The translations under genes were made by a program, and so were the position numbers. 40,855 nt of DNA, taken from positions 1 through 40,855 of the IMG/VR virus record IMGVR_UViG_3300025133_000257. The stretch is one strand, 5' to 3'. Within the stretch, counting starts at the first letter, position 1. Each line of letters starts with the position of its first letter. The DNA comes from a virus. Under the pieces are notes generated by a model. That model saw nothing but the letters and a program-made list of their open reading frames with translations, had not been told where the DNA came from and ran no database searches. This document shows positions 2,867 to 36,118 of this stretch, piece by piece.

Positions 2867-3916
2867 ATGTTTGAAAATTATCCAAAAATAGAATATGACT
2901 TTATAAACGAAAACGGCACCTTTACTAGAGAGATGCAGGATATCTTTCGTAGAGTTTCACTCACAGAAGAAACCATGAAAAATGGAGAGAATTATAAAAT
3001 ATACACCATCAATGATGGAGATACTCCAGAGAGAATTGCATTTGAAGCATATGGTGATGAAAATCTTTGGTGGGTCGTTTTATTAGTAAACAACATTTTA
3101 GATGTCCAAAACGAATGGCCAAAAAGTGTCACCGATATTACCAGACAGTTTGATGATTTTCTAGATGGGAATAGTTACTACACAACGGAAACACTTGATA
3201 TTCAAAAGGACGATATCATAGTAAAGAGAGATGTAACTGCTGATGGTTCAATAGACATAAACATATATGGTGTGATTGATAGTCATGATTCCTTTTTGCA
3301 TAAGTTTGATGTAAAGAACCAAAAAGCAAGTGATACAAAACTTGATGAGAATGATGAATTCTATATTTATAGAAGAAACGGAGATGAATATGTAAAGGTT
3401 GATGGGTTTGGATATACTGCTTGTGCAAGACAGAGTATTGGTTCTACAGCTTGCGCGCAAATTTTAGGTCCTACTGCTGGATACAACGTCGCTGGCAAAA
3501 TACCTGTTCCTAACGGACCTTTTTGTAACACTGCTGGTTCTACTTTTGGAATTGTTCGTAAGAAAGATTCTATTAAAAATGGACTAGAATATTTTGAATA
3601 TAAGGGTGATAGATTGAATCCTTATTCTACTGCCAATGGATCGGGAGCAAGCGGGGACTTTTATTTGAGTGTGGGCCAAAATCTCTGTGGATATACTGGT
3701 TGCCTTCTATATCAATACATTTCTCCCGATGATAATGTTCCATCATATATTAATGTGGTTAGTAGTGGTGCAGACCTTATTCGTATTAATGATGATAGAA
3801 GAGTAATTAAACTTGTTAAGCCTAGTGTAGTAAGACAAATTGTAAAAGAATTTAATGTCCTTATTGGTGGAGCTGTTCCTCCAGGAACAACAAAATATAT
3901 AACCCTCAACGGTTAG
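2867..3916 (+). CDS. 53: Baseplate wedge protein gp53-like with a Cys-bearing insertion
   Basis: The N-terminal segment at residues 42-80 (Y-T-I-N-D-G-D-T-P-E-R-I-A-F-E-A-Y-G-D-E-N-L-W-W-V) is the LysM-like signature of T4 gp53, which joins wedges around the hub. The C-terminal D-D-R-R-V-I-K-L-V-K segment (about 313-322) also fits. T4 gp53 has 196 residues and this protein has 349. The extra length lies mainly at about residues 110-300 and includes six Cys (around residues 186-286) plus a Gly/Ala/Thr-rich stretch. I infer a surface insertion added to a core wedge protein. The start ATG follows 13 bases after the previous stop and has only a weak GAGA-type ribosome site. Confidence 0.82.
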   Translation: MFENYPKIEYDFINENGTFTREMQDIFRRVSLTEETMKNGENYKIYTINDGDTPERIAFEAYGDENLWWVVLLVNNILDVQNEWPKSVTDITRQFDDFLDGNSYYTTETLDIQKDDIIVKRDVTADGSIDINIYGVIDSHDSFLHKFDVKNQKASDTKLDENDEFYIYRRNGDEYVKVDGFGYTACARQSIGSTACAQILGPTAGYNVAGKIPVPNGPFCNTAGSTFGIVRKKDSIKNGLEYFEYKGDRLNPYSTANGSGASGDFYLSVGQNLCGYTGCLLYQYISPDDNVPSYINVVSSGADLIRINDDRRVIKLVKPSVVRQIVKEFNVLIGGAVPPGTTKYITLNG

Positions 3917-3928
3917 GAGAATTTTATT

Positions 3929-6091
3929 ATGCCAATGACACATGCAAGGGGATTTGAAGCGGCCATAACCAAACTTATCATTAAAAAGATTAAGGGGGGT
4001 GAAGAATTTTGTCTTATTGGTTGTGATGATAATATTGGAGGGTATTTATTAGATTTAACAATACAAGAAAGTATATTTTCCTCTTCTGTGGTTGGAAACA
4101 TGACAGTAAAAGAATTAGGCGATTTTATGGATAAGTTTATAGTCACTGGCCATAATGAAACTGTTTATATAGAAATAGAAAATCTTACTATTCCAAATTC
4201 AGATCATAAATTAGAATTTTGTGTCAATGATATTCATAAAATAGCCAATGCCGCTACAAGTGATGCCGCTTATGGTGGTGCATCAAAGAGGGTTCAATGG
4301 AAAATTCATTTCGTTTCCTGTGAACCCATGTATCTTGACATTCCAGATTGGCAAGAAAAGGCTGGATATGTGGATGAAGACCGTTTTCTTAAAATTGCAA
4401 AAGGACGATCACAAACAAAGTCTGGAGCGAGTCATTCTAGAGGGGAAGAAGACCTAAAAGATTTAGTCGGTGAATTAGCAGACAAATATTTCAATCCCGA
4501 AGCAACAAAATACAGTAAAGCACAAAACGAAATGGATATTGAAGGCACACACAATTCAATTTGGTTAAAAGCCCACCCAAATCTATATCCGTGGGGAAAA
4601 TCAACAAACACGATGTCATTAATGCAAACGATGACAAATCTAGCAGAAAATTCTATAACCGAAGACATGAAGCATAGCAATTTTTTGTTTTGGGCAGATT
4701 GGGATGGGTATCATTTCAAATCAGTTAATAAAATGATTGAAGATACAAAAATTCCAAAATCGTCTGAAGGCGCTCCAGACCTTACTACACCGCATGTCTA
4801 TCAAAGGAGTGATGGTACAACTCAGTTAAAGTATTTGGAAGGAAAAGGCGACCCGAAAATTTTATATCAGAAGGAAAGTCGAGGATATGATCATCTTGGA
4901 AATTGGCAAGATGGGGTATATTCTTCTTATTATGAACACACTGAACCAAATTATTCAGACCCCTATGTGGATTATCTCGATTCTAGTTCTCAACATCCCT
5001 CTAAAATTATTGATTATGATTATCATAGAGATTGGGAAGAATGGAACACAATAGAAGAGTATAAAATTATTTCAGATGAAATTGATACAAGTCTTGATAA
5101 AGAAAATCCACAAAAAAATAGATTGTATAGACACGATAATGACATCTATGGATATTTCTCTCCATATCTAAACGACCCAAATCCCAAATCATACGATTTC
5201 ATTACAAGTAGATTAGAACAGGGAAACCGTGGTAAAAGTAATAGTATATATTGGCAATCGCAGGGCGACTTTTGCAATTATTCAATAGCAGACTTAGAAA
5301 AAGTATATAAAAAAATTATAAAACCATCGGAAGAAAATTACAAAGAATTTCTACGAATTAAAAACTTAAAAGAAAAATGGAATGTATATAGGCATTCAAT
5401 CTGTTGTGATAAGCAAGATATTAAAAAACAATTCCTTGCAGTAATTGATGATGCGGCTTTAATATCTGATGATGGTGGAACTCCAAACAGAGGAGGCATA
5501 TACGAATACTCTTGGAGAGAAGTTGAAATTTGGCCAACAGGCGCTATCAACGGTTATTGCACAGAAGGGGATGAAGAACCTGAAATATTATCAAGCGATG
5601 ACGCGCCTCTTTCGGTTGTTGTAGTTCCTTGTGGATTACAGGGAAAACATTTTATGGACACAGGTGATAATGGGGAAGAGCCATCAATCCCTAGTCAATG
5701 GACAAATGGAGCATATAACATCAATGAATTGTTAAACACAAAAATTGGAGATGATGTATATGTAGGACCAGGAGTAAATGTTGCAGACGATGACTTCAAC
5801 GATTATCCAGAAGCATATCAAATGATGCCAGTTGGTGGTTACTTTAAAGTTGGTGATGACCCATGTGCAAACGATCACGAAGAAACTATACATTTTCATA
5901 AACATGTCGTGCAAATGTACAGACTTCCTGCTTATATGTTAGAATGTATTGGTCCAGACGGGAGTGAATCGGACGAAAGTTCAAGCGATGATAATGGTGG
6001 TGAAGGTGAACCAGAAAATCTTGGGCCAGAAGAAATTTTCTTCTTTGATGTTCCAAATGCACATGACGGATTATGCGGCTGTATTGAATAA
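3929..6091 (+). CDS. Probable baseplate central hub protein (gp27-like N-terminal part)
   Basis: A 720-residue protein in the position of the hub genes. Residues 40-110 show a strand-rich region with [12 protein letters not shown] and [12 protein letters not shown], the kind of hub domain that measures deviation and binds the tube. At about 250-266 [13 protein letters not shown] is typical of gp27-like hubs. The last 45 residues are an acidic Ser/Asp/Glu linker (about 678-704) followed by a short tail ending C-G-C-I-E. T4 gp27 has 391 residues, so this is much longer. The classical final hub domain is not obvious here, but a similar domain is found in the gene at 9271. A strong AGGAGA ribosome site precedes the ATG. 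The functional call rests on context and short motifs. Confidence 0.55.
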
Positions 6092-6093
6092 TA

Positions 6094-7590
6094 ATGAGTA
6101 CACATAGAATATGTTGTTGTGGATGTGGTGATAAACCTTGTAATGGTAATGAATTTTTATACGAAAATACAAGTGGAAATTGCCCTGTTTGTGCAATAGG
6201 GGAATCAACACATACTTATGCTGGCCATGAACCACTTGCACCATTGCCATGGAGCCCAGATGATTTGTATGTGGGAGAATATTGCTGGTCTAATCAAGTG
6301 CCGGATAACACATGTTTCTACGGTGTCTGTAAACCCCCGATGATTCCACCACACTATTATCAGTTTGCATCTCCTATGGGATTTCTTCCTTGGTCGCCTC
6401 AAGTATTTGCAGATTGGATAGAAAATTGGGAAGGCCCACTTGTCCCAAAGGGCGATTGTACTATGCATTGCACAGAAGAAAACATTGGATGTCATAGTAT
6501 TGCTTTTGTTGGTAATGTTGGAAATTATTGGAGAGAGGGGCTTGATTGTGGTAAGAAAATTTCAACCGTGCCTCCCGAAAACGATGAAGACTTTGGAAAT
6601 TGGCAATGGACAAGAGAGTGGGTACAGTCTGGTGGTAAGTTAGTTGTTATGGGTGAAGATGCATGGTGTCTTTCTAAATCTTTAAAGTTTAATAAAATAG
6701 AGCCACACTATACATCTACTGGTTGTAATATTCCTTGTGATGTTGAAAATGTATTCGATGAATATGAATCGGAAAATTGGGATGGTGTGACAATATCAGA
6801 TAGATTAAAATTATTTGCTGAGTTTTGTGCAGATGGTTCTACGGGGGAATTCGGTCCAGGAGGAATTGCAGGACCAGAAGAATTTTTTGAATTTGGTGAT
6901 GCCGAGAATAGTGAACGGATAAATGAGAATGAAGCAATATATGAGGATGGTGCTATAGTTGGCATCAAACCATGTTGTCAAAAAACCCTACGACCATTTA
7001 AGAAAAAACCAGAAGGCTCAACAGATGGAAAATTACCATTTTCAGTTTATACTAATAATGCGTTTGGTTTGATTCCCATCAATAAAGGAAAGTCATTAGT
7101 TGGAAGTTGCGACAGTAAAGATTGCACCATTGTATATAAAGAAAACGGTAAAGGTGGAGTTATAGTAGTTTATGATAGTGATGTGTGGGGGATGACTGCC
7201 ACACAAAAACCATTAAGCACATACTCAATAGCCGCGGCCACAATAGGCTCAATTACACCAGAAGAACTTCAATTGAAAAGTTGTAATAACGACTTTTGGA
7301 AATTTTTATGTGAAGAGTTTCTTGTCGATGAAGATGAACCATATGAACCAGATGAATGTGAAGGTCCAATATTTTGGGATAATATGGGCCCAGATTATGA
7401 AGATAATGAATGCCTTGCAATTGCCGCGTGTTGTTTTTCAGATGGTACTTGTGAGGATATGAATGCTTGGCAATGTTCCAAACTGGTTGGAAAGTGGCGA
7501 GGAAGATGTTTGGGGTGTGATAACAACAATAGCAGTGCCATAGGAAATTGGTGTTGTCCTACATGCTCTGATATGGGTGGAGGAGAATAG
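6094..7590 (+). CDS. Cys-rich virion protein with an amidotransferase-like middle domain
   Basis: 498 residues, beginning with a Cys cluster (I-C-C-C-G-C-G). The middle (about residues 130-375) has alternating strands such as [12 protein letters not shown], then [13 protein letters not shown], and later [13 protein letters not shown]. This resembles the Rossmann-like fold of class I amidotransferase-like domains, although no catalytic triad can be assigned. The C-terminus carries one full unit of the window-wide repeat (A-C-C-F-S-D-G-T-C, about 445-453, then C-x-x-x-x-G-K-W and C-x-x-C). It starts 2 bases after the hub stop without a clear ribosome site, suggesting translation coupled to the hub gene. 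A structural or tail-tip role is inferred from position; the fold assignment is a hypothesis. Confidence 0.5.
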
Positions 7591-7592
7591 AG

Positions 7593-9242
7593 ATGGTATA
7601 TATTGAACCTTGCGAAGTTGAAGATTTATTCGGATCATGTTGTACTTGTCAATATACACCACAAGGTGACGGTGATGGTGGAGGTTATCGTGCTTTGCCT
7701 CCCCCGGAGATTCCCACACCACCAGAATTACCCCCTCCAAGAAATCCTGATGAGGACCGTGACGGCGAACCACGGGGCCGTGATTTACCCGATGAATATG
7801 GAGGCATGTGTTGTGACAAAAACCCAGAATATCATGCATCAGGCTGCGGTCATTGTTACACTACTAGTAGTGACTACTGCGATGGAGAATACCAAACTTT
7901 TGTCCTTTTTTCACCAGAATGTCAACACCCGCGTGAACCATCCTGTCCTGATAACTACGTTGAGCAAGCTTGTTGTGATGCCGATTGTTGTATGGCTGAA
8001 CCCGAACAAGGATGGGACAGCCCGTGGGCTTGGTGCGACCCGTGGTGGGATTGCCCGGCCGACTACGGTTGTCCAGGTTCTGGACCGTGTCAGGAATGTT
8101 TATTTCGGGAATGTGAAGAGCATTGCGACTGTGCAGAGGGAGAATGTTGCAACGAAGTCCAAGACTTAACCAGGTGTGTTGAAGGTGACTGTGAACGTGA
8201 TTGTGGAGATGGAGAGGAGTTGGGGGCATGTTGCTGTCGGAAACCGGTGCCTCCTTACTGGCAGTGTATTCTTACTGATTTTGAATGGTGCGATGATCGT
8301 AGAGGTTGGATGGATGGTGGTTGTCTTTGGAAGGGAGCTGGTAGTACTTGTGATGATGATGACATCTGCGATATTGGTTATGAATGTGAAGTCGATGCAG
8401 ACTGTCAATCTGATTATTGTTGCTCTGATTTTGGTAATTGTGTACCGTGTGCATCTTGTGATTGTCAATGTATTGATAATGTTGAAGAATGGGAATGCTG
8501 TGAAGAAACAAATGGGGACGGATTATGGCATTCGGGTGAAACCTGTGAAAGTTATGATTGCGAAGAAGATTGCCCAGTTGAAGATGAATGTGGTCCCAGT
8601 AACCCCTGTCCACCATGTTGGTCTTGTGAAGACGGCGAATGTGTACCCGAATGTGCAGAGAATAGTGATTGTCCATATAATAAATGTTGCTATGACGGGT
8701 GTTGTTCTACTTGCGAACCAGAGTGTGAAGAGGATGATGATTGTCCTGGCAGTCAATGTTGTAAGAACGGTTCATGTACATATGACTGTCCACCAGAACC
8801 CGAATGTGCAGAGAATAGTGATTGTCCGCCAGCACAGTGTTGTGAAGGCGGTGAATGTGTTGATTGTCCACCAGAACCAGAGTGTGAAGAGGATGATGAT
8901 TGTCCGCCAGCACAGTGTTGTGAAGGCGGTGAATGTGTTGATTGTGATCCAGAACCACCAGATGGTGATGATCAATGTAACACCAGTTCAGATTGCCCTG
9001 AGGGACTGTGCTGTATTTATGTTCCAAGCCTTGAAAGCAAAGCGTGTATGTTTTGCGACATTGGAGACACCTGTGTTGGAGATGATATTCCTGACGGTCC
9101 TATGTGCTATTGCGAAGTGACAGCAGGAGGCAATGTGCCGTGCGAACCAGGAGATACGCCCGATAGTGACGGTTTGTGTTGGTATTGGTATTGTTGTTGT
9201 AATGAAGCAGTCTGCGGCCACTATGAATGTCCGTGGTTATGA
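7593..9242 (+). CDS. Extremely Cys-rich protein with tandem WAP-like CC repeats
   Basis: 549 residues of low hydrophobicity, rich in Cys, Asp, Glu and Pro. The section at about 333-466 is a tandem array of about 26-residue units of the form PEC-(A/E)-E-(N/D)-(S/D)-D-C-P-x-x-x-C-C-x-x-G-x-C-x-x-C. The spacing D-C-P-x-x-x-C-C resembles the whey-acidic-protein four-disulfide core or EB-type modules, but I cannot claim homology. Earlier parts hold irregular CC and CxC clusters. No signal peptide or membrane segment is visible, so the Cys residues would be made in the cytoplasm and oxidised or loaded with metal later. It has a strong AGGAG site and starts 2 bases after the previous stop. The local GC content is higher than in baseplate genes. 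The function is unknown; a structural decoration or metal-binding role is possible. Confidence 0.6.
   Translation: MVYIEPCEVEDLFGSCCTCQYTPQGDGDGGGYRALPPPEIPTPPELPPPRNPDEDRDGEPRGRDLPDEYGGMCCDKNPEYHASGCGHCYTTSSDYCDGEYQTFVLFSPECQHPREPSCPDNYVEQACCDADCCMAEPEQGWDSPWAWCDPWWDCPADYGCPGSGPCQECLFRECEEHCDCAEGECCNEVQDLTRCVEGDCERDCGDGEELGACCCRKPVPPYWQCILTDFEWCDDRRGWMDGGCLWKGAGSTCDDDDICDIGYECEVDADCQSDYCCSDFGNCVPCASCDCQCIDNVEEWECCEETNGDGLWHSGETCESYDCEEDCPVEDECGPSNPCPPCWSCEDGECVPECAENSDCPYNKCCYDGCCSTCEPECEEDDDCPGSQCCKNGSCTYDCPPEPECAENSDCPPAQCCEGGECVDCPPEPECEEDDDCPPAQCCEGGECVDCDPEPPDGDDQCNTSSDCPEGLCCIYVPSLESKACMFCDIGDTCVGDDIPDGPMCYCEVTAGGNVPCEPGDTPDSDGLCWYWYCCCNEAVCGHYECPWL
8823..8945 (+). repeat. Near-identical 78-bp direct repeats in the WAP-like array
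   Basis: A 45-base block encoding the CP-PAQCC-EGGEC-VDC part of the unit is identical at 8823-8867 and 8901-8945, a period of 78 bases or 26 codons. More diverged copies precede it (about 8650 and 8740) and one follows (about 8975). The pattern indicates recent tandem duplication in frame. Confidence 0.85.
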
Positions 9243-9246
9243 TTAG

Positions 9247-9254
9247 TATAAATA
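9247..9254 (+). promoter_or_regulatory. TATAAATA late promoter
   Basis: Exact late-promoter word in the 28-base gap between the Cys-rich gene and the gene at 9271. An AGAGG ribosome site sits between it and the ATG, although with T4 geometry the leader would be very short. Confidence 0.5.
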
Positions 9255-9270
9255 ATAAAAAGAGGTCTAT

Positions 9271-10101
9271 ATGAAGAAAGTACAATTAATATCAAAACTA
9301 ACAGAATTTGCAAACACCGCATATGTTCATAGCAGAAAAATAACTCATGCACATGGCGGTGTGTGGGATGAGTATCCGTGTGCAAACCCAGACGGTCCAG
9401 TAGACAATTGTGATTGCCCAGAGGATGATGATTTGTGTAATTGTCCTTGTCAAGAATTAAAACCAGATTCAGAAGAACAATTAGAAATAATAAATGGTGA
9501 AGAACTTTTGCTCTTCGTGGAAAGAGACTGTTCCACTGGTGACTGTGATGATGGTGGGGGGAGTTCACCTCCCCCCACTGTTTCTGCTGACGACATGAAA
9601 GAACCCACCCAAAAAGAAGTTGAAGAAGCAGAAGAATCCATTAAAGAGTGTGAATTGATTGAAAGTGTTTTGGGAGAAGAGTATTTGGGATGTCTATGGA
9701 AAGATATAAAGCATCCAAGTAGTTGCAACTGTCCTTGTGTTGGGGAAAAGTTCGGCGAATATCTCGGATTAACAAGAACCTATGCAACGTATTGGGACAC
9801 AGAACCCAACCAACCGTTGATAAGAAACGCACAAATGACACTTCTTGGTTCACAAACCGTCAAACTCCACCTTATGCCTGATTATACTTTGAGGCCAGGT
9901 ATGTTTATTTACATTGTAGACCAAGAGACGGCGTCTGTAAAAGAAAAAAAGTTTGGAGGGAGGTGGTTAGTCCAAGGAATAATTAATCATCTTGGCGGAT
10001 TTCCTGTCGCGGGTGCGATGGTGGTGATTGCAGTAAGGGATACTCAAGTCCAAGACCCAAACGAACAAGGCGGATCTAACGCAGGTTGCTCGTCTTGCTG
10101 A
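9271..10101 (+). CDS. Cys-motif protein with a hub-like C-terminal domain
   Basis: 276 residues. Residues 37-60 and 151-156 carry paired C-x-C-P-C motifs (CNCPC at 56-60 and 152-156), and residues 94-130 form an acidic/Pro linker and a Glu-rich helix. From about 184 to 257 there is a small beta-rich domain: A-Q-M-T-L-L-G-S, then L-R-P-G-M-F-I-Y-I, K-K-F-G-G-R-W-L-V-Q-G-I-I-N-H, and a closing strand M-V-V-I-A-V-R-D. This sequence of a value strand, R-P-G-x-x-I, a G-x-W-x-V turn and a closing strand is the layout of the last domain of gp27-like hub proteins. I therefore infer a detached hub domain. The C-terminus GCSSC arises from a 37-base duplication (see repeat). Preceded by TATAAATA and AGAGG. 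Confidence 0.55.
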   Translation: MKKVQLISKLTEFANTAYVHSRKITHAHGGVWDEYPCANPDGPVDNCDCPEDDDLCNCPCQELKPDSEEQLEIINGEELLLFVERDCSTGDCDDGGGSSPPPTVSADDMKEPTQKEVEEAEESIKECELIESVLGEEYLGCLWKDIKHPSSCNCPCVGEKFGEYLGLTRTYATYWDTEPNQPLIRNAQMTLLGSQTVKLHLMPDYTLRPGMFIYIVDQETASVKEKKFGGRWLVQGIINHLGGFPVAGAMVVIAVRDTQVQDPNEQGGSNAGCSSC

Positions 10102-10121
10102 ACAAGGCGGATCTAACGCAG
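10063..10121 (+). repeat. 22-bp direct repeat spanning the stop codon
   Basis: The 22 bases at 10063-10084 recur exactly at 10100-10121, an offset of 37 bases. The second copy, read in the original frame, would end the protein EQGGSNAD then TAA. The first copy continues into GCSSC and a TGA that overlaps the second copy. The layout looks like a small tandem duplication that replaced the protein terminus. Confidence 0.85.
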
Positions 10122-10182
10122 ATTAACTCAATATATCACGATAAAATTATCATTAGTGTTTATACATACAATATTAGAATAG

Positions 10183-10190
10183 TATAAATT
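10183..10190 (+). promoter_or_regulatory. Late-promoter-like word TATAAATT before gp25
   Basis: One mismatch from TATAAATA, at the end of a 106-base gap (10102-10207) that otherwise holds only the repeat copy and AT-rich DNA. It is 17 bases before the gp25 ATG, with a GGAG ribosome site between. Confidence 0.45.
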
Positions 10191-10207
10191 CACCCGGAGA
10201 AAAATAA

Positions 10208-10666
10208 ATGGCCATTGCAAGTACAAACACAGACATTAATATAGATTTAAATAAAAATAAATTTACTAATGATGTAGGAGTAGTGAGGGATGTTAATTCT
10301 GTACGACAATCTCTTATCAACATAATACTTACAATTCCTGGAGAAAAACCATTCAATAGAGGATTTGGAACAAGGATTGAAGACTCTTTATTTGATAATT
10401 TCGTCTATTCAGACAGCATAAACACTCAAATGGAGATAAGAAAAACTGTAGAAGCATATGAACCAAGAATTGAAATTGAAGATGTATACATTTCAGATGT
10501 TCCCTTTTACGAGGGCAGTGTATTAGGCGGAATGGAATCAAATGCAAGAGCAACAGTATCAGATTCTAATCAACTATATGTTTATATTTCATATTTTTTG
10601 GTAAAGGGAACATCAAACGTCGCGGTTCAAGATGCAATTCAAATCGGGGTAAAAAAGGTAAGATAA
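10208..10666 (+). CDS. 25: Baseplate wedge protein gp25 (gpW/gp25 family)
   Basis: 152 residues with the family layout: N-terminal D-I-N-I-D-L-N-K-N, V-R-D-V-N-S-V-R-Q-S-L-I-N-I-I-L-T (about 28-44), P-G-E-K-P-F-N-R-G-F-G-T-R-I-E (about 46-60), and an E-P-R-I-E-I-E-D-V-Y-I segment. T4 gp25 has 132 residues and related proteins are about 140-150. It joins gp6 and gp53 to form the wedge core near the sheath. The ATG is preceded by a good GGAG site and followed by gp6 with a 3-base gap, the classical gp25-gp6 order. No Cys insertion is present. Confidence 0.95.
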   Translation: MAIASTNTDINIDLNKNKFTNDVGVVRDVNSVRQSLINIILTIPGEKPFNRGFGTRIEDSLFDNFVYSDSINTQMEIRKTVEAYEPRIEIEDVYISDVPFYEGSVLGGMESNARATVSDSNQLYVYISYFLVKGTSNVAVQDAIQIGVKKVR

Positions 10667-10669
10667 AAC

Positions 10670-12445
10670 ATGGCACAACCAAACACAAATCTTGGAAGTT
10701 TAGATTTTAACTCTGTTAAAGGGAGTATTATAGATTTTCTTAGAACTCAAGACACATTAAAGGATTTCGATTATTCGGGTTCAGCAGTTCAAGTGCTTAT
10801 TGATGTTCTAGCATACAACACAATGTATTATGCTCACTATTCAAATATGGTTGCGAGTGAAATGTTCTTAGATTCAGCACAAAGATTATCATCATTAATA
10901 TCACTCGTTAAACCGTTGGGGTATGTAATACCCGGCAAGATATCAGCAAAAGCGAGAGCAAAAGTTCGTCACGGCGGCAGTGGTAATCCAATACTTGAAA
11001 AATACACCAGATTTTCTGGAAGGAATGAAGCAGGAACAGCATACTCCTTCTATACAGTTGATGAATGGCCATTAAATCTTGACGGAGAAGCAATTGTAGA
11101 GATATATGAAGGGAAAAGTTTATCAAAAGATATTCCACTATTGGTTGATAGAGATACACAAAAAGGATTTTTGCACGGATTAGATATCGATATTTCCACG
11201 ATTAACATAGAAGTAAAACTACATGGAAATAACGAATGGGACCCTTGGGCAAAAGCGGATAATATACAATCTGGTTTAGATGACGATAGTAGTGTATATT
11301 GGTTAGAAAGAAGTGAATTAGGTTTCTTTATTGTGTTTGGTGGAAATGTTGGAATTAATACTACTGTACAAGTAGGAAAGCAAATAGGGCCAAATGATTT
11401 AGTACGAGTATCCTATTTAAAAACCAACGGCAATGCAGGAAACGGAGTAGGAAGTTTTAGAGTTCAAGGCCTTGCGGGTGCAGAAACTGATACGGTGTCA
11501 ATGTCTTCTGGTGGTGCAGACGAACCAAATTTAGAGTCTATTAGATTCTTTGCGCCAAGGTGGTTTGCGGCACAAGATAGAGCAGTAACGGTAGAAGATT
11601 GCAGAGCAATGCTAGCCAGGTATGGAATTGGAGGTAATGTTGATAATCCATTATCTGTGTTTAATGTGTGGGGTGGAGAAGAAATGGACCCTCCAATGTA
11701 TGGTAGAGTTTTTGTTTCTGTTAATGAAGACAACGCACTAGATTTGGCAGCTGTTGCAGAACGTGTAGTAAATCTGTTAAAGGAGAAAACCTGTGTTACT
11801 ATTTTACCAGAATTTGTGAATCCTCAACAAATTGAAGTTGTTGTTTCTGGAATGCTTGCTTGGGATCCCATGCAAACCGATCTTTCAAGGGGACAAATAA
11901 TGAACAAAATAATAAATGTAATAGTAGAAAAATATCCTCTAAAATTTAACAACACATTTAGCGCATCTGAGATTTCTGGTGCTATTAATTCTGTTGGAGA
12001 TTCTGCTGTTTCTACCGATTCAAGCACCTTTTCTTTTTCTATTAAGGGTGTGGTGTTAGGACCACAACATGGTTCGGTACGGGTTAATTTTGGAAATAAA
12101 TTAAAACAAAGCAGTGTTAGTTCTTCTGAATTTGTTGCAGGAACAAAGATTACAGGAGATTATGATATTCCTGCTGGCCAGCTGATTAAAATTAGAACTT
12201 ATGGTGCGGTGGATAAATTTGGAAAACAAAAAATAGAAGCATTTTATCAAAACGAAAATAATACAATAAGTCGTGTTCCAAATGTTGGTGTATTGATTCC
12301 AGAAAAGGGGATTCTAGATTTATATGAAGGTACTGCTTCTGAACCTTTTTATGTTACAGTGACACCATCAGGTTCTGTGGTTGTAGCAGATAAAAATATT
12401 ATTTCAAAAGTAAATGTCTCTAATCTTGAACTTGTAAGAGTATAA
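10670..12445 (+). CDS. 6: Baseplate wedge protein gp6
   Basis: 591 residues, close to T4 gp6 (660). The N-terminus has the family pattern L-D-F-N-S-V-K-G-S-I-I-D-F-L-R-T-Q-D, then D-Y-S-G-S-A-V-Q-V-L-I-D-V-L-A-Y-N-T and S-E-M-F-L-D-S-A-Q-R. A baseplate_J-like region follows: R-F-F-A-P-R-W-F-A-A-Q-D-R-A-V-T-V-E-D-C (about 288-307) with G-G-E-E-M-D-P-P-M-Y-G-R-V-F-V-S (about 336-351). The protein forms the wedge ring clamp around the hub. It follows gp25 by 3 bases and has only a weak ribosome site, so translational coupling to gp25 is likely. Confidence 0.95.
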   Translation: MAQPNTNLGSLDFNSVKGSIIDFLRTQDTLKDFDYSGSAVQVLIDVLAYNTMYYAHYSNMVASEMFLDSAQRLSSLISLVKPLGYVIPGKISAKARAKVRHGGSGNPILEKYTRFSGRNEAGTAYSFYTVDEWPLNLDGEAIVEIYEGKSLSKDIPLLVDRDTQKGFLHGLDIDISTINIEVKLHGNNEWDPWAKADNIQSGLDDDSSVYWLERSELGFFIVFGGNVGINTTVQVGKQIGPNDLVRVSYLKTNGNAGNGVGSFRVQGLAGAETDTVSMSSGGADEPNLESIRFFAPRWFAAQDRAVTVEDCRAMLARYGIGGNVDNPLSVFNVWGGEEMDPPMYGRVFVSVNEDNALDLAAVAERVVNLLKEKTCVTILPEFVNPQQIEVVVSGMLAWDPMQTDLSRGQIMNKIINVIVEKYPLKFNNTFSASEISGAINSVGDSAVSTDSSTFSFSIKGVVLGPQHGSVRVNFGNKLKQSSVSSSEFVAGTKITGDYDIPAGQLIKIRTYGAVDKFGKQKIEAFYQNENNTISRVPNVGVLIPEKGILDLYEGTASEPFYVTVTPSGSVVVADKNIISKVNVSNLELVRV

Positions 12446-30105: not shown

Positions 30106-33100
30106 ATGCCTGCACCAACAGAAACCTTTATATTTAAATGCAAATGCACCGAAGGCATCTGTCAGAAATGTCTTTCGTCTCATTGGGCGGAAGAGGGTGA
30201 TGCATATATTCCAGCAGGTTGTCTTTTCGCGTTATGCCCTCCACCTGAACTTTGCCAAGGAGATATAGGTCGTCTACCAGTCGATTATCAAAATCTACAA
30301 AATTGTGATGATATGTCTGGCAGCTTTTGTGAGGGGGAGCAAGAGGTAACAGTAGAACACACCTTCGGTGGAGAGTGCCCGGGGATGTTTTGTCAATCTG
30401 GCGCATGCCAGTGTGGCAACGGCACTGCGTGTGATAGTTCCGCGGATGATTGGGAAGCTGAAATTATTACTGAAGGTGCAGACATCTGCGGCGGCCCGGA
30501 TTACGACCCGCCGTGTGAAGATGGTGACCTAACTGGTGCTTGCTGTGCTGGTGCAGTATGTCACGCGTGGGTAACCGAAGATTATTGTGATACGTTTGAA
30601 CCACATGAATTCTTTGAGGGTTTGGCGTGTGGTGATATCGAATGTGACGGTGGTGGTGACGGTGGTGATGGTGGTGATGGTGGTGATAGTGGTGATAGTA
30701 GTGATAGTGGTGATAGTGGTGATAGTGGTGATAGTGGTGATAGTGATAGTGGTGATAGTGATAGTGGTGATAGTGATGTTGTCGGCGCATGTTGTTTGAG
30801 TGATGGAAGTTGCCTTGAAAATTTGAATGGTGGTGAGTGTGATGCTTTCGGTGGCACATACAAAGGTGATAGCACAACTTGCGCTGATGTGGATTGTACA
30901 CCACCAGGCCCAATCGTTGCATGTTGGGATGAAACCAAACTTAGAGCAGACGATGGGGCGGTTGGTGACCGCTTCGGCAGCAGCGTCGCAGTTGATGGCA
31001 ACACAGTTGTTGTTGGGGCATACCTTAACGACAATGACAACGGCTCCGAATCTGGTAGCGCGTATGTGTACCGCTTTAATGGAACTGGTTGGGATGAAAC
31101 CAAACTTACAGCACTCGATGGGGCAGGTAATGACTACTTCGGCACAAGCGTCGCAGTAAGCGGCGACACAGTTGTTGTTGGGGCGCCCAGTGACGATGAC
31201 AACGGCACCTGGTCTGGTAGCGCGTACATCTACGAACGCGTCGGTGGAATCTGGGAAGAAAAAACCAAACTTAGAGCAGACGATGGGGCGGTTGGTGACC
31301 GCTTCGGCAGCAGCGTCGCAGTTGATGGCAACAGAGTTGTTGTTGGGGCATACCGTGACGATGACAACGGCACCTCTTCTGGTAGCGCGTATGTGTACCG
31401 CTTTGATGGAGCTGATTGGAATTTTGAAACCAAACTACTTGCAGAAGATGGGGCAAGTTATGACGAATTCGGCTTAAGCGTCGCAGTTGATGGCAACACA
31501 GTTGTTGTTGGGGCACACGGTGCCGATAACTATTCTGGTAGCGCGTACATATACCGATTTGATGAGATTGCTTGGAATGAAACCAAACTCACTGCAAGCG
31601 ATAGGGCAAATAGTGACTACTTCGGCAACAGCGTCGCAGTAGATGGCGATACAGTTGTTGTTGGGGCACTCTGGGACGATAACGAATACGGCCCCAATGC
31701 TGGTAGCGCGTATGTGTACCAATTTGATGGAGCTGATTATTGGTATGAAACAAAACTCCTTGCAAGCGATGGGGCAAGTAATGACTACTTCGGCAGCAGC
31801 GTCGCAGTAGATGGCGACAGAGTTGTTGTTGGGGCATACGGTGACGATGACATCGGCATGAGTTCTGGTAGCGCGTATGTGTACCAATTTGATGGAAGCA
31901 GTTGGATTGAAACCCAACTCCTTGCAAGTGATGGGGCAGGTGAAGACCGCTTCGGCAACAGCGTCGCAGTAGATGGCGACAGAGTTGTTGTTGGGGCATA
32001 CCGTGACGATGACTACACTGGTAGCGCGTATGTTTATATTCCATGTGTTACTGGTGCTTGCTGTTTTGCAGATTTAAGTTGCCTTGAATATTTTGATGTT
32101 GATTGTGTTGCTTTCGGTGGCACATACAAAGGTGATGGCACAACTTGCGCTACTGCGAATTGTGGAACATCAGACGCAACAGGTGCATGTTGTTTTGAGG
32201 ATTTAAGTTGCCTTGAAAATTTGAATGGTGTTGATTGTAATACTTTCGGTGGCACATACAAAGGTGATGGCACAACTTGCGCTGATGTGGATTGTACACC
32301 AATCGGCGCATGTTGTTTTGCCTCATCGGCTGAAGATAGAGACTGTACAAGTTGTATCCAAACAACTGAAGCGGACTGTCCGTCCACAGAGTGGCACGGT
32401 AATGAAGAATGTGATGATTCATCGTGGCCATGCAGCCCGCAGAGTGGTTCGTGCTGTGTTGCAAATGAATGCACAGACGATGTTCTTCAAGTAGACTGCA
32501 ACGGCTTCTGGAATTGTGACGACTGTGATAACCGATATGGGGCGTGTTGCATGCCTTCTGCAGGGGGTGGGTGCCTGCATGTAAAGAAGACGACATGCGA
32601 TGCGTTGCTAGGAATATGGAATTGTGACGACTGTGATTCGTCTGATTGCGTCTGGGGTGCTTGTTGTGAATGGAACGTACCATCGTTATCGTGGCAGTGT
32701 TCTAATGACGTTCTAGAAGATAAATGTACAGGTCATTGGAAAGGTGAGAATTCAACATGCTCTTCAGACCCTTGTGGCGGCGCGTGTTGCAATAACGATG
32801 ATGGTACTTGCATGGATGACGACACGGTGCCTGATGCAGCGACTTGCAAAGCAATGGATAATCATTCTTGGCAAGGACCTGGTACTAGATGTATTGATGT
32901 TGGGCATCTTTGCAATTGTGACGATTGTCGCGCGTGTTGTAAAAATGGAATATGTAATGTTGAAGAATCATATGAAGTCTGTACAACCGCTGGTGGTGTT
33001 TGGTTTAATAACGAAACGGACTGTAGCACACTTGGTTTGTGTGATATTCGTGCGTGTTGTGTTGGAGACAGTTGTACACTTTTAACATCAAGTGAGTGTG

Positions 33101-35184
33101 GTGAAATCTATGGAACATGGCATAGTGATAAAACTAGTTGCAATCCTAATCCATGTGTAACCATAAATGGTATTTGTTGTGATCCGAACCAAAATGATAC
33201 TGGAAATGGTCACTGTGGCGACCCAGATGGAACTCTTACTGAACATGATTGTGTCGGTGACGAAATCTTTATTGCAAATGGCCATTGTGCCGATAATGAT
33301 TGTAGTGATGATACTGGTCGTTGTTGTTGGTGTCCAGATCCCACGGGGGATGATTGTATTTCACCTGTGTCTAATTGGCAATGTGTGAATGTACACGGCA
33401 GATGCGGGGATTCTTCTTGTATTAATTGGTCACCGGGCAATAGTCTTTGTGGTGGCTCTATGCAAGATTGTCAGAATTTAATAGATACCGGCGCATGCGG
33501 CGCAGTTGGTGCATGTTGTAGAGATTTTACTTGCACACAAGAAACAGACTATAGTTGTACTAATAACGGTAGTGGTACATGGCAAGGAAAGAATATTCAT
33601 TGCGAGGTGGATACTTGTGGCAGTGAAGACCCAGAGGGCGCGTGTTGTATAGATGAAATTTGTTCAACAACAACATCGAAGAATTGCTTGGCAGGGGAGG
33701 GAACTTATCTTGGTGATGACACGACATGCGATGGTGACCCATGTGTAATTGTAGACCCAGAGGGTGCATGTTGTTACATAAAAGGCGGTACAGAAACTTG
33801 TCAACAAAAAACAGAGGCCGATTGTGAATTATTGGTCGATTATGTGTATTATGGTGACGGTTCTACTTGTGCAGTTGAAGGTGCTGATTGTGGCACTGGT
33901 ACTGGTGCTTGTTGTTTTGTTGACACTGGATGTCATGAAAATTATAATGAGACAATTTGCAACGGTGAGGGTGGCGACTACAGAGGTGATGGTTCGGTTT
34001 GCTTTGATCAACTTGATTGCGTGGGGTCAGAAGGTGTTTGTTGTATAGGGACGGTTTGCCATGAGACATATACATCTCATTTAGCTTGTAATAGTGACGG
34101 TGGTGTTTGGACTGGGGGTGTAGCAACTTGTATTGGGTTTAATTGTGGCCCTGGTACTGGTGCTTGTTGTCGTGGTTTATGTCTTGGTGAGGACTATACA
34201 TCAGTAGATTGCGAGGCCGTGGGTGGCACATACCAAGGTGATGACACAATTTGCGCTACTGTGATTTGTCCAGTCCTTCAAACGGGTGCATGTTGCGTTG
34301 ATTTAAATTGTCTTCCGGGTGTCTATACATCAGCAGATTGCGAGGCCGTGGAAGGCACATACCAAGGTGATGGCACAACCTGCGCTACTGTGGATTGTGA
34401 AACACCAGTAACCGGCGCATGTTGCGAGAATGACGAATGCACGGGTGTCTATACATCAGCAGATTGCGAGGCCGCGGGTGGTACATACAAAGGTGATGGC
34501 ACAACCTGCGCTACTGTGGATTGTGAAACACCAGACCCAACTGGCGCATGTTGCGAGAATGACGAATGCACGGGTGTCTATACATCAGCAGATTGCGAGG
34601 CCGCGGGTGGTACATACAAAGGTGATGGTACGCTATGCAGTTCTAGCATTTGTGGATGTATAACCTGTCCCGGTGGTGATGGTGGTGATAGTAGTGATAG
34701 TAGTGATAGTAGTGATAGTAGTGATAGTAGTGATAGTAGTGATAGTAATGATAGTAGTGATAGTGGTGATAGTAGTGATACTGGTGATACTGGTGATAGT
34801 AATGATAGTGGTGATAGTAGTGATAGTACCGAACTTGGAGGCTGGTGTTGTAGTGGTGGAGAAGATAATTGTTCCCCTTGCCCAGAAGATGGGGGTATAA
34901 TTCCTGATTTTTGTTGCTATAAAGAATTGCCACCCATCGGCCCTGTTACTGACTGGTGTACACCTGAGTTTGCAACTGAAGCGGAGTGTTATGAATTTTG
35001 TTGTAACATGGGTGACATCATCCCAATTGACCCCCCAGGTATCCCCGTGCAAGTTCCCAACGTACCGACCACGATGGACAGATATACAAATGTCCAACTT
35101 GATAACGGAGAGTGTGTTTGGGTGGAATGTATGGCTCCATTTTGCCCATATCCGTTGTGTACGGAGATAAATCCACATGGCTAA
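30106..35184 (+). CDS. Giant Cys-repeat adhesin-like protein with seven-bladed FG-GAP propeller
   Basis: 1692 residues, the largest protein in the window. It has about 22 Cys-repeat units of the form G-A-C-C-x5-C-x(8-12)-C-x3-G-G-T-Y-x-G-D-G-T-T-C-x4-C, two before residue 275 and the rest after 645. Residues 276-644 are seven FG-GAP blades of about 52 residues (each T-K-L-x-A-x-D-G-A, F-G-x-S-V-A-V-x-G, V-V-V-G-A, S-G-S-A-Y-V-Y), the count expected for one closed integrin-type propeller. Ser-Asp linkers sit at about 181-224 and 1523-1574. The C-terminus carries N-G-E-C-V-W and C-P-Y-P-L-C, shared with the protease gene. It overlaps the next gene by 8 bases. There is no signal peptide or anchor, so display on the virion is inferred from the neighbourhood. 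Confidence 0.65.
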   Translation: MPAPTETFIFKCKCTEGICQKCLSSHWAEEGDAYIPAGCLFALCPPPELCQGDIGRLPVDYQNLQNCDDMSGSFCEGEQEVTVEHTFGGECPGMFCQSGACQCGNGTACDSSADDWEAEIITEGADICGGPDYDPPCEDGDLTGACCAGAVCHAWVTEDYCDTFEPHEFFEGLACGDIECDGGGDGGDGGDGGDSGDSSDSGDSGDSGDSGDSDSGDSDSGDSDVVGACCLSDGSCLENLNGGECDAFGGTYKGDSTTCADVDCTPPGPIVACWDETKLRADDGAVGDRFGSSVAVDGNTVVVGAYLNDNDNGSESGSAYVYRFNGTGWDETKLTALDGAGNDYFGTSVAVSGDTVVVGAPSDDDNGTWSGSAYIYERVGGIWEEKTKLRADDGAVGDRFGSSVAVDGNRVVVGAYRDDDNGTSSGSAYVYRFDGADWNFETKLLAEDGASYDEFGLSVAVDGNTVVVGAHGADNYSGSAYIYRFDEIAWNETKLTASDRANSDYFGNSVAVDGDTVVVGALWDDNEYGPNAGSAYVYQFDGADYWYETKLLASDGASNDYFGSSVAVDGDRVVVGAYGDDDIGMSSGSAYVYQFDGSSWIETQLLASDGAGEDRFGNSVAVDGDRVVVGAYRDDDYTGSAYVYIPCVTGACCFADLSCLEYFDVDCVAFGGTYKGDGTTCATANCGTSDATGACCFEDLSCLENLNGVDCNTFGGTYKGDGTTCADVDCTPIGACCFASSAEDRDCTSCIQTTEADCPSTEWHGNEECDDSSWPCSPQSGSCCVANECTDDVLQVDCNGFWNCDDCDNRYGACCMPSAGGGCLHVKKTTCDALLGIWNCDDCDSSDCVWGACCEWNVPSLSWQCSNDVLEDKCTGHWKGENSTCSSDPCGGACCNNDDGTCMDDDTVPDAATCKAMDNHSWQGPGTRCIDVGHLCNCDDCRACCKNGICNVEESYEVCTTAGGVWFNNETDCSTLGLCDIRACCVGDSCTLLTSSECGEIYGTWHSDKTSCNPNPCVTINGICCDPNQNDTGNGHCGDPDGTLTEHDCVGDEIFIANGHCADNDCSDDTGRCCWCPDPTGDDCISPVSNWQCVNVHGRCGDSSCINWSPGNSLCGGSMQDCQNLIDTGACGAVGACCRDFTCTQETDYSCTNNGSGTWQGKNIHCEVDTCGSEDPEGACCIDEICSTTTSKNCLAGEGTYLGDDTTCDGDPCVIVDPEGACCYIKGGTETCQQKTEADCELLVDYVYYGDGSTCAVEGADCGTGTGACCFVDTGCHENYNETICNGEGGDYRGDGSVCFDQLDCVGSEGVCCIGTVCHETYTSHLACNSDGGVWTGGVATCIGFNCGPGTGACCRGLCLGEDYTSVDCEAVGGTYQGDDTICATVICPVLQTGACCVDLNCLPGVYTSADCEAVEGTYQGDGTTCATVDCETPVTGACCENDECTGVYTSADCEAAGGTYKGDGTTCATVDCETPDPTGACCENDECTGVYTSADCEAAGGTYKGDGTLCSSSICGCITCPGGDGGDSSDSSDSSDSSDSSDSSDSNDSSDSGDSSDTGDTGDSNDSGDSSDSTELGGWCCSGGEDNCSPCPEDGGIIPDFCCYKELPPIGPVTDWCTPEFATEAECYEFCCNMGDIIPIDPPGIPVQVPNVPTTMDRYTNVQLDNGECVWVECMAPFCPYPLCTEINPHG
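30646..30777 (+). repeat. Ser-Asp/Gly-Asp hexanucleotide tract 2
   Basis: GGTGAT/AGTGAT units in frame, encoding Gly-Asp then Ser-Asp. It separates the first Cys unit from the second one in the giant protein, just ahead of the propeller. Confidence 0.9.
30808..32301 (+). repeat. Near-identical Cys-repeat units flanking the propeller
   Basis: The 96 bases at 30808-30903, directly before the propeller, closely match 32206-32301, two units after it. Both encode a SCLENLNG start, then C, FGGTYKGD, T-T-C-A-D-V-D-C. The match suggests that the propeller DNA was placed into an older Cys-repeat array or that the array was copied across it. Confidence 0.75.
30931..32037 (+). repeat. Seven FG-GAP repeat blades (coding)
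   Basis: Seven consecutive units, each about 140-165 bases. Blades 1 and 3 are identical over 72 bases (30932-31003 and 31262-31333). Bases here are richer in G and C than in the surrounding Cys array, for example in runs such as GACGATGGGGCGGTTGGTGAC, which supports a separate origin or recent duplication. Confidence 0.85.
34414..34628 (+). repeat. 86-bp exact direct repeat in the last Cys units
   Basis: The 86 bases at 34414-34499 recur exactly at 34543-34628, a period of 129 bases or 43 codons. They encode G-A-C-C-E-N-D-E-C-T-G-V-Y-T-S-A-D-C and onward to K-G-D-G. An earlier unit (about 34285) is more diverged. Confidence 0.9.
34672..34828 (+). repeat. Ser-Asp hexanucleotide tract 3
   Basis: Long run of AGTGAT units with some GGTGAT, AATGAT and ACTGGTGAT variants, encoding Ser-Asp with occasional Gly, Asn and Thr. 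It lies between the last Cys unit and the conserved C-terminal module. Confidence 0.9.
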
Positions 35185-36118
35185 TCCTCCAACCCACTCA
35201 GATGAAAAATCAACAAAAGAAGTTCTTGATGAACTTTCTATTAACACTTGTTGCGATGATGCTTGTATAGATTGTATAATTGATGGTGCGTGTCATACTG
35301 AATCTGGTTGTCCAGACGATTGTGGTGGTCCACACGGAAATCCTGTTTTCACCAGATGTGATGGTGATGATTGCGAACCACCATGTCCAAGAGAATGTTG
35401 GTCTTGTGGTCCACTTCAAATTAAAGAAGGTTATTGGGAGGATGCACAGTGGCATTGTGGATTTAATTCTTCTAGTCCATGTTGTGAATTGCAAAATTAT
35501 GATTGGGAACAAACATTCTGCAACGGTGGAGTTTCTTGCGAAGAACAAAAACGATTAAGTAAACTTGCAATGATGTGTTATTGGAGAAAATACACAAGAA
35601 ACGGGTCTTGTCAGTGTGAAGGGAATTGTCCATGCGAAGACGGACCTAACACAGACTGTCCAAATACTTGCTATTCCTGTGAAGATTTAATAAGAATGCA
35701 TAATGGTGGTAGTGAATGGTGTCATGCAGGTCCTGGTGGAACTGGAACGATGGATAGGCATATAAGAAGAACTTGTGGATTTTTGTGTAGTGAAAGTTCA
35801 GAATGTGCGGCCTGTATGGATTGTGAGTGTGATGACGGACCAATTATTCAGGTTGAAAAGAAAACTGCTAGGAGTATGGACCCACCGCGGGGTGGAGCGT
35901 GTTGTATCGATGGCATATGTAATGATGGATATACTAAAGTTTTCTGCCGAAATAGTGGTGGGGTGTATTATGGTGATGAAACATTATGTGAGGATTATCC
36001 ACAATGTGAAAACGATTATACCGACTGCGCTTCTGATATACAATGTCCTATTGGTTTGTGTTGTGAAAATGGACTATGTGTACCATGTGCGCGCGTTGGT
36101 GGAAGGGCATGGAGATAA
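35177..36118 (+). CDS. Cys-rich virion protein
   Basis: 313 residues starting inside the end of the giant gene (8-base overlap, ATGGCTAA), so the two are probably translated together; a GGAG site lies upstream. Cys is spread throughout in CC, CxxC and CxC clusters. Residues about 234-275 hold one standard repeat unit (G-G-A-C-C-I-D-G-I-C then C-R-N-S-G-G-V-Y-Y-G-D-E-T-L-C). Immediately after it is a WAP-like unit (D-I-Q-C-P-I-G-L-C-C-E-N-G-L-C-V-P-C), the same type as in the protein at 7593. This links the two repeat classes in one chain. No catalytic motif is visible. Confidence 0.55.
   Translation: MANPPTHSDEKSTKEVLDELSINTCCDDACIDCIIDGACHTESGCPDDCGGPHGNPVFTRCDGDDCEPPCPRECWSCGPLQIKEGYWEDAQWHCGFNSSSPCCELQNYDWEQTFCNGGVSCEEQKRLSKLAMMCYWRKYTRNGSCQCEGNCPCEDGPNTDCPNTCYSCEDLIRMHNGGSEWCHAGPGGTGTMDRHIRRTCGFLCSESSECAACMDCECDDGPIIQVEKKTARSMDPPRGGACCIDGICNDGYTKVFCRNSGGVYYGDETLCEDYPQCENDYTDCASDIQCPIGLCCENGLCVPCARVGGRAWR

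Follow-up and report, generated by a model that had tools for sequence, protein, structure and literature searches.

The locus and its split hub gene

The window analysed here, a stretch of 40,855 nt from the viral record IMGVR_UViG_3300025133_000257 (IMG/VR), holds on its plus strand an ATG-started gene at 7593–9242 whose acidic product of 549 aa contains 96 cysteines (17.5%). D and E together make up 24% of the residues and K and R 3%, His is scarce, and the cysteines include 15 CC doublets as well as numerous CxC motifs. A Shine-Dalgarno-like GGAGGAG (7579–7585, plus strand) ends 7 nt before the ATG and overlaps the 3' end of the preceding gene (6094–7590). The search for homologues suggested in an initial annotation of this DNA found the gene in four further contigs, one copy being 99% identical and three showing 44–52% identity, and no relative among 50,697 annotated phage records.

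The gene lies within a cluster of baseplate genes, all on the plus strand. Using the gp53-like (PF11246, 2867–3916), gp25-like (PF04965, 10208–10666) and gp6-like (10670–12445) baseplate wedge genes as syntenic markers, we found the order gp53, hub N part (3929–6091), middle gene, hub C part (9271–10101), gp25 and gp6 in every split locus whose sequence covers enough of the region to reveal it. For gp6, the closest named phages are those of Sinorhizobium, Pelagibacter and Synechococcus with about 26–30% identity. The window belongs to a set of uncultured myoviruses, distantly T4-like, whose hub gene is split in two.

That the cysteine-rich gene interrupts the hub region had been seen in the initial annotation and is correct, but the flanking genes had escaped notice as what they are by sequence comparison, namely two halves of a single hub protein of family phrog_350. 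Gene 3929–6091 matches phrog_350 with E 1.9e-14 (best stretch at profile positions 166–305) and aligns to residues 34–480 of a 1636-aa single-ORF hub found in two related records (L011/L050; BLAST E 3e-49), the C-terminus of which (residues 1440–1602) aligns to 9271–10101 with 42% identity (E 8e-51). Gene 9271–10101 on its own reaches E 0.45 against phrog_350, and the corresponding gene of the relative L018 matches positions 349–428 with E 1e-8. HHalign of the hub parts of the split group against the fused hub resulted in E 2e-77 for the N part and 8e-74 for the C part. For the six split records tested, the phrog_350 matches of the N gene end at 275–358 and those of the C gene start at 340–349, with the break at about profile position 340–358, and in the fused records both parts are located within one ORF. 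Three observations lead us to read phrog_350 as a gp27-like hub: its tail-protein annotation, the position of its gene and a weaker match between the L011 C part and the 'baseplate hub' family phrog_1135 (E 1e-4).

In Pelagibacter phage HTVC008M the phrog_350 tail protein, to whose N and C parts the two flanking genes correspond, is located in the same gene neighbourhood and is encoded by one uninterrupted gene of 445 aa spanning profile positions 8–433, whereas the window group has two genes with one or two cysteine-rich genes between them. The single-ORF hubs of 1560–1744 aa from a sister group of uncultured phages (L011/L050, L032, L055, L058 and others) possess the same N and C domains, with a large insert at the equivalent position, in L011 (gene 4695–9605) about 950 aa long (residues about 480–1440). 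They differ in being one ORF with 1.4–2.6% Cys, and neither BLAST nor HHalign detected any similarity between their middle part and the middle gene of the split group. In a phylogeny based on the hub C domain, 15 split and 16 fused rows are set apart by one change with 100/100 support; as its root is not fixed, the ancestral state within this set was taken from the uninterrupted HTVC008M gene. Introns or other structured RNAs at the break were considered as well, and no Rfam match was obtained within 3500–10700. Two CNCPC motifs of the hub C part are also conserved in the otherwise Cys-poor single-ORF hub of L011, possibly a metal or disulfide site predating the cysteine-rich expansion.

The gene preceding the cysteine-rich one also belongs to the same unit, which had likewise been overlooked. 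The break of the other split relatives is filled by a middle gene of 606–2745 aa with 4–12% Cys (some being cut at the contig end), in which a conserved domain at the N-terminus is followed by a variable tail. The tail ranges about tenfold in length (238–2243 aa) and combines cysteine units of two types (A and B, see below) with acidic stretches and linkers rich in Pro or Thr, in a mix that differs between genomes. In the window and in the contigs L003 and L008 this middle gene consists of two ORFs (6094–7590 and 7593–9242 in the window), and the contig L009 begins within the cysteine-rich region. An alignment of the end of 6094–7590 and the start of 7593–9242 with the one-ORF relatives places the stop and start of the window inside a conserved continuous stretch, which reads ...CCPSCEELEEPCEPMPTGSCCRC in L020 and resumes behind the break with MVYIEPCEVEDLFGSCCTC in the window. 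Therefore, the ORF 7593–9242 is best read as a detached middle-gene tail and not as an independent insertion. The product of 6094–7590 (498 aa, 7% Cys) ends with a type-B-like Cys unit, and its predicted structure resembles class I GATase-like folds, coherent matches of the model, which has a low mean pLDDT of 57.7, being IFT52 GIFT (Z 8.6), a GH42 domain (Z 8.4) and a ThuA-like protein (Z 7.0). Not all tails are dominated by Cys repeats: those of L022 (5807–9982) and L031 (7681–9951) are largely Pro-rich (PPDPPDPP, PPGPPPG), and the middle gene of L026 (7780–9945) contains the Thr run TTTTTT. We describe these stretches as putative mucin-like linkers.

Repeat units, their turnover and their likeness to known modules

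The array of 7593–9242 repeats a unit with six cysteines in the spacing C-x5-C-x4-CC-x4-C-x2-C, here called type A. A profile search with a model of this unit, derived from the array together with its relatives, identified six such units in the protein with E-values down to 1.8e-9, and residue-shuffled decoy proteins gave no match at E<0.01. Following a type-B-like unit (GACC...C...C...G...C, 8223–8351), they are located at 8382–8450 (unit 1, ECEVDADCQSDYCCSDFGNCVPC, residues 264–286), 8649–8714 (unit 2, ECAENSDCPYNKCCYDGCCSTC), 8721–8786 (unit 3, ECEEDDDCPGSQCCKNGSCTYD), 8802–8867 (unit 4), 8880–8945 (unit 5) and 8973–9056 (unit 6, the divergent QCNTSSDCPEGLCCIYVPSLESKACMFC, residues 461–488), all on the plus strand. 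Both types were also found in middle-gene tails and in the downstream fibre genes, where type B is common; the sole other type A unit of the window lies at 36023–36088 (plus strand), corresponding to residues 283–304 of the cysteine-rich protein 35177–36118.

The very recent duplication claimed in the initial annotation could be confirmed at the DNA level. Two adjacent 78-nt copies (8783–8860 and 8861–8938) are 91% identical, TRF detects a 78-nt period across 8715–8957, and unit 4 is a chimera whose N half resembles unit 2 and whose C half equals that of unit 5, the N half of the latter resembling unit 3. The longest exact repeat of the gene comprises 49 nt (8819–8867 and 8897–8945), whereas 200 codon shuffles did not yield more than 16 nt and the relatives reach only 20–34 nt. 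This supports that the lineage of the window recently underwent a duplication or conversion. As the corresponding units differ in the three relatives with 44–52% identity, the homogenisation of the array is both recent and lineage-specific.

Despite this turnover the gene does not evolve freely. Its dN/dS is about 0.25–0.4, with synonymous sites near saturation, compared to roughly 0.2–0.45 in the neighbouring genes. Across residues 211–549 of four sequences 60 of 68 cysteines (88%) are invariant versus 53 of 231 residues (23%) other than Cys, Gly and Trp. These comparisons point to a cysteine scaffold that is kept under selection while the loops and the number of units change. The 99% identical copy in L002 (1935–3572) carries a 9-nt deletion that creates an in-frame TAG within the array and truncates the protein after residue 373; unless this is an assembly error, some genomes can apparently do without the final 176 residues.

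The units had been likened to WAP four-disulfide-core modules, an assignment that we cannot uphold. Their C-x-x-x-D-x-D-C-P...CC stretch is indeed reminiscent of WAP, but WAP requires eight conserved cysteines forming four disulfides per unit and the units described here have six, and a search of the whole window for PF00095 returned nothing at E<=10, nor did hmmscan at E<=1. The only Pfam family matching the protein at all is DUF7107 (PF23416), a family with no assigned function, which matches four positions of the array and stays below its curated cut-off of 24.6 bits (18.6 bits for the protein and 23.8 for its strongest position). Dickkopf_N and EB modules gave no match. The inhibitor cystine knot combines a knotted disulfide pairing of 1-4, 2-5 and 3-6 with the spacing C-x(3-7)-C-x(3-6)-C-x(0-5)-C-x(1-4)-C-x(4-13)-C, and every loop of the unit fits it except the last, which has two residues only.

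An AlphaFold model of the array, a prediction that had been proposed along with the WAP assignment, shows units with a regular short helix and a beta hairpin at moderate confidence (pLDDT 76, pTM 0.32). These features and the CC doublet are shared with knottins and Dickkopf, with a local rmsd of 0.6–1.4 over 26 columns (Dkk1, Hc3a), but no E-value is significant, the last loop is too short, and the units described here are arranged in tandem and occur in a phage. Foldseek against the PDB returned nothing at E<=0.001, and a second structure comparison found no chain above Z 2.4 (matches at Z 2.2–2.4). Knottins and Dickkopf rather than WAP are the look-alikes of the modelled units, albeit weak ones. 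Matches in BFVD to Cys-rich giant-virus proteins (E 1e-6) have TM-scores of 0.17–0.25 and were read as similarity between flexible arrays only.

At the sequence level the units come closest to Cys-rich repeats in bacterial proteins, mostly of Myxococcota type, and to a Dumpy peptide. The best-matching bacterial proteins, such as that of Lujinxingia vulgaris (L073), show tandem C-x(4-5)-D-x-D-C-P...C.dG.CV units with 33–39% identity, but they usually have four cysteines per unit, lack the CC and are encoded in bacterial genomes instead of phage hubs. The N-termini of bacterial proteins with units of this style look lipoprotein- or signal-like by eye. Much of the bacterial match consists of the Cys frame, and the E-values against cellular sequences are relative to the candidate stretches; therefore, a common descent of the units is not established.

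A possible role of the array at the tail hub

The gene order and the hub halves, which must pair, would place the protein at the tail hub, and we propose that it is a virion protein forming an acidic, disulfide-bonded array of beads that probably contacts the host surface. For this reading as a whole we see about an even chance. According to it, the gene provides the separately translated C-terminal tail of the middle protein in split-hub phages, and the middle-gene products would assemble together with the hub halves at the hub. Phages that assemble in the cytoplasm are expected to use few disulfides. The repeat tail would be made there with reduced cysteines that oxidise after lysis, resulting in a stiff, protease-resistant and acidic array projecting from the tail tip. 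The array, which shows no match to any known binding domain, could then bind the host surface or an extracellular polymer. Unequal recombination would quickly alter unit number and loop sequence with the cysteine frame being kept, as expected of a binding surface.

In a bolder version, which we regard as rather improbable, the array at the hub break would replace a gp5-type spike/lysozyme as the first contact with the host, its units being shuffled in order to follow changing receptors and locked by oxidation only after lysis. Our literature search, in an incomplete collection, found no description of such a hub. The middle-gene products might also fill the place of a gp5-like spike/lysozyme with the array contributing mechanical stability only, as a structural spacer or spike and not as an adhesin. 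The Pelagibacter phage HTVC008M and phage phiN3 do carry a protein of phrog_430 (gp5-like hub lysozyme) in the gp53–gp25 interval, and no phrog_430 match was found among the window genes scanned in that interval or in nine related records, all of which may however be fragments. A replacement of the spike by the middle-gene products is thus possible, but the tenfold range in tail length would be odd for a part fitting a conserved tube, and we consider a purely mechanical role to be improbable to a similar degree.

The other alternatives are less probable still. Cysteines that bind Zn, Cu or Fe, be it during assembly or at the host envelope, would make the product a metal-binding or redox-active protein, in line with its very high Cys and acidic content and its many CC and CxC motifs; few histidines, the lack of a match to a recognised metal-binding family and a conserved cysteine spacing like that of disulfide-rich extracellular repeats make this unlikely. 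We judge equally unlikely a secreted or late-expressed inhibitor, for example of host proteases, that acts outside the virion like animal knottin or WAP modules. The weak local similarity of the units to knottins extends to the trypsin inhibitors EETI-II and MCoTI, but it stays at the low Z-scores given above with no significant Foldseek match, the N-terminus MVYIEPCEVEDLF does not resemble a signal peptide by eye, and the gene sits inside a split hub gene and is fused to the conserved middle protein in relatives. A functionless leftover of gene fission could account for the stop in the L002 copy and for the faster evolution of the gene, its amino acid identity in comparisons with the window being 0.51 versus 0.71–0.85 in its neighbours. 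Against such decay, which we consider very improbable, stand a dN/dS well below 1, the near-invariant cysteines in four lineages and an ORF that runs through undisturbed in the window, L003 and L008 and stays open across the portion present in L009.

A whole phage group thus places up to hundreds of cysteines in a gene amid the baseplate cluster, where a core hub gene has been broken in two. At this point the hub gene accepts insertions of hundreds to thousands of residues, and it becomes testable whether oxidation after lysis can arm a tail tip.

Further cysteine-rich genes of the window

Most of the downstream fibre-like genes are Cys-rich too, a further point missing from the initial annotation. 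Six such genes with 3–14% Cys are located between 20630 and 39833, several of them having collagen-like GPTG starts and DS-rich linkers and many carrying tandem GACC...C...C...GGTYxGDGTTC...C units; they probably encode tail fibres. One protein of 1692 aa (30106–35184) contains seven FG-GAP_2 repeats (PF14312, E 2e-127) between Cys-rich repeat blocks. These repeats, likely forming a beta-propeller, are tandemly duplicated at the DNA level as well, with a period of about 165 nt.
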